Shown: positions 1-54,883 of the stretch, piece after piece
Position numbering within the stretch: the stretch's first letter is position 1
Layout of the letters: each line of letters starts with the position of its first letter
Source of the DNA: Koleobacter methoxysyntrophicus
Lineage (GTDB): Bacteria; Bacillota; Thermosediminibacteria; Koleobacterales; Koleobacteraceae
Assembly (NCBI RefSeq): GCF_017301615.1
Contig: NZ_CP059066.1
Coordinates: 2,802,888 to 2,866,887 of the forward strand
Direction: 5' to 3'
Length of the DNA stretch: 64,000 bases
Made by a program: the position numbers and the translations under genes
The notes under the pieces: model-generated
The model's input: only the letters and a program-made list of their open reading frames with translations
Told to the model about the DNA's origin: nothing
Databases searched by the model: none

Positions 1-342
1 AGCAGTATGTGTTTGTCATGTGGCAACAGAATGGCACCCAGCATTGAGGCAGATACTACTAAAAAGCCTATCTTCATATTTGCAATTCCTGCTATCTGAT
101 TGCTGCTTATAACACCCATAATAAAGCCAAAGATTACTGTTATAAATGAGCTTGCAAGGATAATTATTAAGATCATTAACTTATTAATATTTGGCAGATT
201 CAATATCCACAGCATAGTATATGCCTGGACAAGGGGGAGCAAAAAGCCTATAAGGCTTTTGCCTACTACAAATTCAAACCCAGTCATAGGTGTAACATTT
301 AAAGCGTTCAAAGTTTTTGACCGCTTTTCTTCAATAACCGTC
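1..342 (-). pseudogene. ABC-2 type transporter permease, 5'-truncated fragment
   Basis: The minus strand is open from about base 342 to the window edge. It reads like the middle of an ABC-2 export permease: a VIEEKRSKTLNALNVTPMTG motif, then GFEFVVGKSLIGF and three hydrophobic segments. In this family the EEK...TL..L..TP motif normally follows a long extracytoplasmic domain, so roughly the first half of the protein is missing. No start codon with a ribosome site lies upstream, because azlD DNA begins there on the other strand. The 3' end lies outside the window. Either the gene was cut by a rearrangement or the assembly is joined wrongly here. Confidence 0.6.
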
Positions 343-5936: not shown

Positions 5937-5946
5937 ATAAAAAACA

Positions 5947-6109
5947 ACCCTTCACTTGTCTAGTTTTTAGCACTGTATGACTTTGGGTAAAATACCCAGC
6001 CACATTAGGTAAAGCCTTAATCCGACAGTACCTGTTGACCCATTGGTGTCTCTCGACATTTCCGGGCAGTGGCATATGCTCATACAGGAGCCTCACCTAA
6101 CTGAAGGTA
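5947..6109 (-). ncRNA. M-box (ykoK) Mg2+ riboswitch
   Basis: The minus strand carries the characteristic conserved blocks in order: TTAGGTGAGGCTCCT, CCACTGCCCGGAAA, GTCGAGAGACACCAATGGGT, CAGGTACTGTCGG and AAGGCTTTACC. The ends ACCTTCA and TGAAGGG close helix P1. With Mg2+ bound, P1 holds the strand that would otherwise disrupt the terminator at 5903-5936, so transcription stops before the two mgtE genes. Low Mg2+ lets read-through occur. Both the sequence match and the downstream gene agree. Confidence 0.97.
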
Positions 6110-6127
6110 TCATATTATCTTACCTTT

Positions 6128-49415: not shown

Positions 49416-49445
49416 TTGTATAAAAGGGAAATTGGATATATCTTA

Positions 49446-49527
49446 GTTCAGGGCAAACTTCCCGAAAGGGAAGGACGCAAAGCTGCGGGTCTAAAGTCTG
49501 AAAAGACTATGACAGCCGAGCTGCACA
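49446..49527 (+). ncRNA. Cyclic di-GMP-I (GEMM) riboswitch
   Basis: The hallmark blocks are in order: AGGGCAAACTTCCC, GAAA tetraloop, GGGAAGGACGCAAAGC, GCGGGTCTAAAG with the second stem, and TATGACAGCCGAGCTGC. The GAAA loop and its receptor-like segment and the A-rich junction fit the class I fold. It stands before a terminator and a chemoreceptor gene, so c-di-GMP should control read-through. Whether ligand turns the gene on or off cannot be settled by eye. Confidence 0.95.
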
Positions 49528-49532
49528 AATTG

Positions 49533-54187: not shown

Positions 54188-54216
54188 AATGGGGAAGAAA
54201 TAAAAGGGAGCATAAA

Positions 54217-54246
54217 ATTAAAAAACCCGGCAACGAGCCGGGTTAG
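54217..54246 (-). terminator. Terminator of the zinc-ribbon gene
   Basis: AACCCGGC-TCGTT-GCCGGGTT with TTTTTTAATTTT after it on the minus strand. Confidence 0.9.
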
Positions 54247-54249
54247 TCT

Positions 54250-54537
54250 TTACCGATTTTTCATAAAACAGCTGCTGCAGTAAATAGGTCTGCCATCTCG
54301 GGGCTTAAAGGGAACCTGAGTTGGGGAACCGCATTCAGCACAGACAGCATCATACATCTGTTTTTGGCCTTTCCTGCCGGCAAATCCGCTCCTTTTTTTT
54401 CGTTCATCTCTGCAGGATTTGCATCTTACGGGCTCGTTCTTAAAACCCTTTTCTGCATAAAATTCCTGCTCACCGGCAGAAAATATAAACTCCTTTCCAC
54501 ATTCATTACATACTAGAGTTTTGTCAACAAATGCCAT
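54250..54537 (-). CDS. Small double zinc-ribbon protein
   Basis: This 95-residue protein has two CxxC pairs in each half: CNECG and CKSCRDER in the first (about 10-45), CAECG and CSSCF in the second (about 67-93), with an Arg/Lys-rich linker. It resembles the small zf-trcl/zinc-ribbon proteins of Firmicutes. Function is unknown; nucleic-acid or ribosome binding is plausible. The ATG at 54537 follows GAGGGGA; the longer frame to 54606 runs into the structured RNA and is not used. It is cotranscribed with, or immediately behind, that RNA. Confidence 0.8.
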   Translation of the reverse strand: MAFVDKTLVCNECGKEFIFSAGEQEFYAEKGFKNEPVRCKSCRDERKKRSGFAGRKGQKQMYDAVCAECGSPTQVPFKPRDGRPIYCSSCFMKNR

Positions 54538-54571
54538 TAAAAAAATCCCCTCGCTTTGATTTAGAGTATTT

Positions 54572-54848
54572 GGCATGTCCTTAGCTGACCTGGTCTTTGC
54601 CCCCACACCCGCCTGCTGGAGGTTTCGCTCAAGGTCTAAACCTTCCCACTACTTCCCCTCTCCTTTTGGAAAGCCTTCAGAAATGCATTTAAACTCAATT
54701 TAACCTTAACCTTCAGTTTCCAAAAAGGGCAGGACTTACCTCTAAGCCGCACCATGCTCAGTGATATGTGAATTTATATCACCTTACGTGGGTCGTTTTG
54801 CCTGCGACTGGCATCGACTTTCAACCACAGACCTAAGTTAATGCCGTT
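54572..54848 (-). ncRNA. Structured non-coding RNA of about 277 nt, class uncertain
   Basis: A clear promoter fires right at the base of a closing helix: GGCAT...CTTAG at the 5' end pairs with CTAAG...ATGCC at the 3' end. Inside are a GTGATAT/ATATCAC hairpin (54761-54782), a TTTTGGAAA/TTTCCAAAA helix with its arms near 54716-54724 and 54662-54670, an AAGGT/ACCTT hairpin and GC-rich single strands. No long ORF with a ribosome site fits. The zinc-ribbon gene starts about 35 bases later. The location near hpf and flagellar genes is compatible with the raiA RNA class, but I could not confirm any family. Confidence 0.6.
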
Positions 54849-54854
54849 GAAATA

Positions 54855-54883
54855 ATTATACCCTTTGAAATTGGAAAAAGCAA
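54855..54883 (-). promoter_or_regulatory. Promoter of the structured RNA
   Basis: TTGCTT and a perfect TATAAT are 17 bases apart on the minus strand. The predicted start lies about 7 bases downstream, at the beginning of the closing helix. Confidence 0.8.

Follow-up and report, generated by a model that had tools for sequence, protein, structure and literature searches.

A full-length raiA RNA upstream of a zinc-finger gene in Koleobacter methoxysyntrophicus and a compact raiA form in its class

What is the structured RNA that lies behind its own promoter and ahead of a zinc-finger gene in Koleobacter methoxysyntrophicus, and is it an independent RNA or an unusually long 5´ leader of that gene? 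The preliminary description of the locus, made from the sequence alone, had left the raiA assignment open and proposed a search of the interval against the Rfam models. We ran that search over the whole 64,000-nt stretch of DNA under analysis (contig NZ_CP059066.1, here called the window), and it answers the first half of the question. RF03072 (raiA RNA, ModT) matches positions 54576-54841 on the minus strand with 177.7 bits (E 4.1e-45), above the gathering score of 101.3 bits that defines membership, and the cmscan alignment spans model positions 1-209 of 209. The RNA is a raiA RNA, a further member of an already described family, and a whole-genome search finds one copy in the 3.10-Mb genome.

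The aligned RNA has helices P1-P8 and the pseudoknot pk-1, as well as every element of the conserved raiA core (GGUCUGUGGUUGAAAGUCGA, GAGAG, GUGUGGGG.CAAA and ACCAGGUCAGC). By inspection, the P3 loop AGUCGCA and the pk-loop UGCGGCU are complementary at 7 positions, the same number as the 7 bp by which pk-1 is defined; pk-2 consists of only 2 bp in the raiA reference structure. The helix that had been proposed to close the whole region is real, borne out by the model match and by the pairing of GGCAU (54845-54841) with AUGCC (54576-54572), which extends past the RF03072 model and gives the RNA with its extended P1 the boundaries 54572-54845 on the minus strand. Inside this helix, a 3x3 internal loop is followed by the pairs CUUAG/CUAAG, CUG/CAG and UGGUU/GACCA. 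With P6, P7 and P8 present, the RNA corresponds to structural variant 2 of the two described raiA variants (PMC11751092), and one of its internal hairpins holds an insertion of several tens of nucleotides. Thermodynamic folding (minimum free energy of -83.6, where shuffled sequences average -76.2; z = -1.47) is insufficient as sole proof of structure, and the assignment is carried by the covariance model.

raiA RNAs are abundant and stable, and in other species they influence sporulation and the growth transition by acting in trans (PMC11706538); trans action has been demonstrated in Clostridioides difficile and C. acetobutylicum. Loss of the RNA leads to later entry into stationary phase and less sporulation, and in-vivo probing hints at a bound protein (PMC11706538). 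The earlier remark that raiA function is unknown is therefore outdated with respect to phenotype, since deletion affects sporulation, aggregation and the transition to stationary phase, and with respect to structure, since cryo-EM structures exist (PMC11706538, PMC11751092, PMC12286853) and show a compact, monomeric fold (PMC11751092, PMC12286853). It holds for the molecular mechanism: for this widespread, very abundant and structurally solved RNA, the molecular partner and the mode of action are still to be found.

The RNA at this locus appears to be the first part of a short transcription unit. A sigma-A type promoter, TTGCTT (54883-54878) and TATAAT (54860-54855) separated by a 17-nt spacer (54855-54883, minus strand), agrees with the earlier proposal of a sigma-A promoter and would start transcription near 54848, where the closing helix P1 has its base. 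A generic consensus promoter scan did not pick it up because the -35 box TTGCTT is weak compared with TTGACA; the pattern TTG-N3-16..18-TA-N3-T precedes 56 of 60 related units. Behind the RNA lies the zf_Tbcl gene (54250-54537, minus strand), with its ATG 34 nt beyond the end of P1 and a Shine-Dalgarno sequence GAGGGG (54547-54552, minus strand) in the conserved context AAAG(U/C)GAGGGGAUUUUUU. The gene encodes a 95-aa protein with two treble-clef zinc fingers and 8 Cys (PF13451, E 9e-25; PF23477, E 8e-20; TIGR04272), scoring 86.8, 70.8 and 70.2 bits against curated family scores of 24, 27 and 36. The protein is basic (19 K+R vs 12 D+E), and its AlphaFold model has a mean pLDDT of 83 and a pTM of 0.43; comparison of this structure with the PDB yielded no informative match, and sequence searches likewise suggested no function. 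A strong intrinsic terminator (54214-54244, minus strand), formed by AACCCGGCTCGTTGCCGGGTT and TTTTAATTTT, closes the unit with a stem of 8 pairs, 6 of them G-C, at 54244-54224 and a U-run. We found no terminator between the RNA and zf_Tbcl, and from this we infer that the two are co-transcribed.

We slightly favor a reading, based on these sequence features, in which both products come from one transcript. The full-length raiA RNA would be made from its own promoter as the 5´ part of the unit, and the transcript would continue into zf_Tbcl and stop at the terminator behind it. The RNA would take the raiA tertiary fold and, by analogy with other raiA RNAs, most likely act in trans, with the mature form probably released by processing at P1. 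zf_Tbcl would be translated from the read-through part, using a strong Shine-Dalgarno sequence that does not seem to be specifically hidden by the RNA. In its full model match, P1-P8, pk-1, core and own promoter, the RNA is like the RF03072 family; it differs in having zf_Tbcl 34 nt to its 3´ side, no terminator, and the insertion in an internal hairpin.

The arrangement is not peculiar to this genome. Among 299 evenly drawn genomes of the phylum that are at least 90% complete, raiA is found in 36 and zf_Tbcl in 201, and the two are adjacent on the same strand in 22 of the 27 genomes that have both (families f1, f4, f5, f6, f24 and f30). The distance from the end of the RNA to the start of the zinc-finger domain is a constant 42-50 nt in the 22 adjacent genomes across the six families. 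In genomes of 2-3 Mb, adjacency by chance can be neglected, with the qualification that genomes of the same family are not independent. A protein-only scan of named genomes shows raiA directly upstream at 27 of 80 zf_Tbcl loci, including Pelosinus propionicus (Negativicutes) and other Selenomonadales, and GGUCAG and the ATG are 39-71 nt apart (median 45) across 60 linked loci. The raiA papers surveyed, which do not include the primary neighbor studies Soares 2024 and Weinberg 2017, mention neither the zf_Tbcl linkage nor the missing terminator nor the compact form discussed below, and we regard the novelty of the linkage as provisional. A previous analysis of raiA gene neighbors was judged uninformative (PMC11706538).

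zf_Tbcl is not an obligatory partner of raiA, because it is absent from 9 of the 36 genomes with raiA, and presence of the two shows no association across the 299 genomes (27/36 vs 174/263, Fisher p = 0.35). An alternative that we consider possible but somewhat less probable than not is that raiA acts in trans here as elsewhere while zf_Tbcl simply borrows a strong promoter, and that the two products do not interact. The trans action and high abundance of raiA RNA (PMC11706538), a co-occurrence no higher than the linkage itself gives, and the position of raiA ahead of hpf or transporter genes in other families all fit this alternative, which would not readily explain why the 42-50 nt gap is maintained across six families. 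In a tree of 167 zf_Tbcl proteins, the raiA-linked label is likewise strongly clustered, with at least 7 changes; the alignment has only 99 columns and the tree few firm branches, and linkage inherited by descent inflates the linkage counts. The repeated erosion of the RNA within a persisting promoter-leader-gene unit, described below, also speaks against mere promoter sharing.

As for whether the RNA is a leader or stands alone, the either/or that had been posed has two answers within the raiA family, because terminators separate the loci by neighbor. Where zf_Tbcl is the neighbor, the ORF follows immediately and no terminator precedes it at any of 33 loci, the 4 signals that the script scored being inside the ORF; 8 of 13 raiA loci with other neighbors, such as hpf, have a terminator, or P1 and then a U-run, within about 110 nt. 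In this view, raiA is a shared leader ahead of zf_Tbcl and often a stand-alone RNA ahead of hpf and other genes. At two hpf-linked loci (L023 and L025), the U-run comes after P1, and in some such RNAs P1 may double as an intrinsic terminator.

Could the RNA then serve chiefly in cis, with zf_Tbcl binding this leader and limiting its own synthesis, as in the autoregulatory leaders of ribosomal proteins? The leader position, the constant spacing, and the retention of the unit where half of the RNA is lost fit such a mechanism, and different structured leaders before one gene family across lineages are a feature shared with the ribosomal-protein leaders, although zf_Tbcl is not counted among the known ribosomal proteins. 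Yet when raiA leaders were compared with their dinucleotide shuffles, pairing with the Shine-Dalgarno sequence showed no excess, so we rejected its sequestration by the leader, and no attenuator lies between RNA and ORF. A cis leader of the riboswitch type, which would have a terminator or a Shine-Dalgarno switch between aptamer and ORF, was also discarded. The conserved raiA core, moreover, far exceeds what a leader needs, and raiA acts in trans elsewhere. We consider the autoregulatory leader unlikely.

Other structures occur at the same site, and they bear on this question. Remains of raiA lie ahead of zf_Tbcl at loci without an Rfam match: L161 (z 13.5), L192 (z 8.9), and L145 (z 4.5-5.9), whose leader has a near-exact raiA 3´ end, GCAAAACCAGGUCGGCUAAGCAAGGG. 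The class to which L161 belongs includes family f6, where full raiA is linked to zf_Tbcl, and families f108 and f49, which have no Rfam match. At L163 (z 3.9), from genome G025 of the window's class, about 80 nt with the outer P1 and one hairpin are left, and the promoter, the gene and sigG are kept. The remains at these four loci indicate that, in several lineages, the promoter-leader-gene unit persists after the raiA core has been lost.

In Oscillospirales, the place ahead of zf_Tbcl is taken by a tRNA-like element, UGCCCCGGUAGCUUAA..AGAGCGUUGG..GGUGACGGUGCGAAUCCGUCCAGGGCA (L083, L072, L102, L117, L134, L137, L120, L094 and L101), at about 2396-2475 of the loci, with the ATG near 2500. Rfam was scanned over 13 loci, and the element reaches its tRNA cut-off in 9 loci; ARAGORN calls no tRNA on these elements, and the anticodon loop looks shortened to about 3 nt. 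They show no similarity to raiA and may be an undescribed leader RNA. At three other zf_Tbcl loci (L159, L166 and L172), we noted by eye that CAACCUG/CAGGUUG forms a closing helix and that CCUCCUUCUUAGG could pair competitively with CCUAAGAAGUGGGAGG, which would hide the Shine-Dalgarno sequence and make these leaders possible riboregulators. Both kinds of element, in the position otherwise held by raiA, fit the autoregulatory alternative.

The window's class itself holds a second form of the RNA. raiA was found in 22 of 26 genomes of the class, and in 19 of these it is compact, at 110-121 nt, and scores 38.9-58.9 bits (E 4e-8 to 9e-14 per genome), below the RF03072 gathering score. The compact form lies ahead of zf_Tbcl in 19 of 19 cases and keeps 52 nt at the 5´ end and 15 nt at the 3´ end of raiA nearly letter-exact. 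It retains P1a-c, the GAAA turn, P3a, P3b, P4 and a short, rebuilt P5. P6-P8 are missing, as is the pk-2 loop GUCAAA, and the compact form is thus neither of the two structural variants (PMC11751092). Taken one at a time, the compact sequences mostly do not show a pk-1 pairing that is significant against shuffles; we regard it as supported because none of the 19 has lost either half (GCCG in the loop, CGGC as its counterpart), and both halves agree with those of full-length raiA. Searched with a model built from the compact sequences, the 299 genomes yielded no copies of this form beyond the window's class.

Half-size RNAs of this kind might be decaying relics without function, and the stronger erosion at L163 in the same class, and at L145, L161 and L192, would be in keeping with such decay. 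We consider this very unlikely: 65 columns are invariant among the 19 sequences from two families, the promoter is conserved, and P4 has undergone a compensatory change, from CCCU/AGGG in one family to CCCA/UGGG in the other. The compact form is also present in single-contig genomes (G004, G014 and G024). A tie of compact raiA to the loss of sporulation was rejected, since 23 of the 26 genomes of the class have sigG above its cut-off, among them G025 and most carriers of compact raiA.

The linkage may persist because zf_Tbcl acts on structured RNA, which could mean that it binds or tunes raiA RNA or its leader. The constant linkage without a terminator, the basic double zinc finger, and the other structured elements in Oscillospirales would point this way; the lack of association (p 0.35), a Shine-Dalgarno sequence that is not sequestered, and the absence of a structural lead for the protein would point the other way. 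Here, as with OLE RNA and its protein OapA, an ornate RNA might work together with a protein (PMC11706538); the present case differs in that zf_Tbcl is a small zinc-finger protein whose binding is hypothetical. We consider it doubtful that zf_Tbcl is the physical partner of raiA RNA. Comparably tentative is the broader proposal that raiA and zf_Tbcl form an ancient RNA-protein unit, in which the co-transcribed protein would bind raiA or compact raiA and tune its maturation or action, and in which the compact raiA of the Thermosediminibacter-like class, at roughly 110 nt, would be a minimal working core. The conserved, terminator-less link to the gene of one small, putatively RNA-binding protein makes that protein a concrete candidate partner. 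As a natural half-size form, the raiA without P6-P8 points to parts that may be dispensable and offers a new handle on function. Both can be tested by ordinary methods.

The surroundings of the unit differ from those published for raiA. According to figures cited in PMC11706538, comFC lies upstream of raiA in 74% and raiA/hpf downstream in 66%, and periplasmic binding proteins are also published neighbors (PMC11477304). The comFC and hpf/raiA neighbors, typical but not defining, are missing at this locus. The hpf and fliST neighborhood noted earlier stands in part: flgN and fliS are directly upstream of the RNA, and hpf is distant, 5.7 kb further along, beyond zf_Tbcl, a glutamine-type ABC transporter, and a c-di-GMP riboswitch with a chemotaxis-receptor-like gene. 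ModT has been reported to work through c-di-GMP in C. difficile. The riboswitch ahead of the receptor-like gene, a c-di-GMP-I element (49442-49528, plus strand, 90 bits), is 5 kb from the raiA RNA. Near secA and hpf lies a DDE transposase gene (PF01609; 43675-45429, plus strand), whose insertion may have split a fli-hpf-secA cluster. The window also holds an M-box magnesium riboswitch at 5945-6111 on the minus strand (154 bits).
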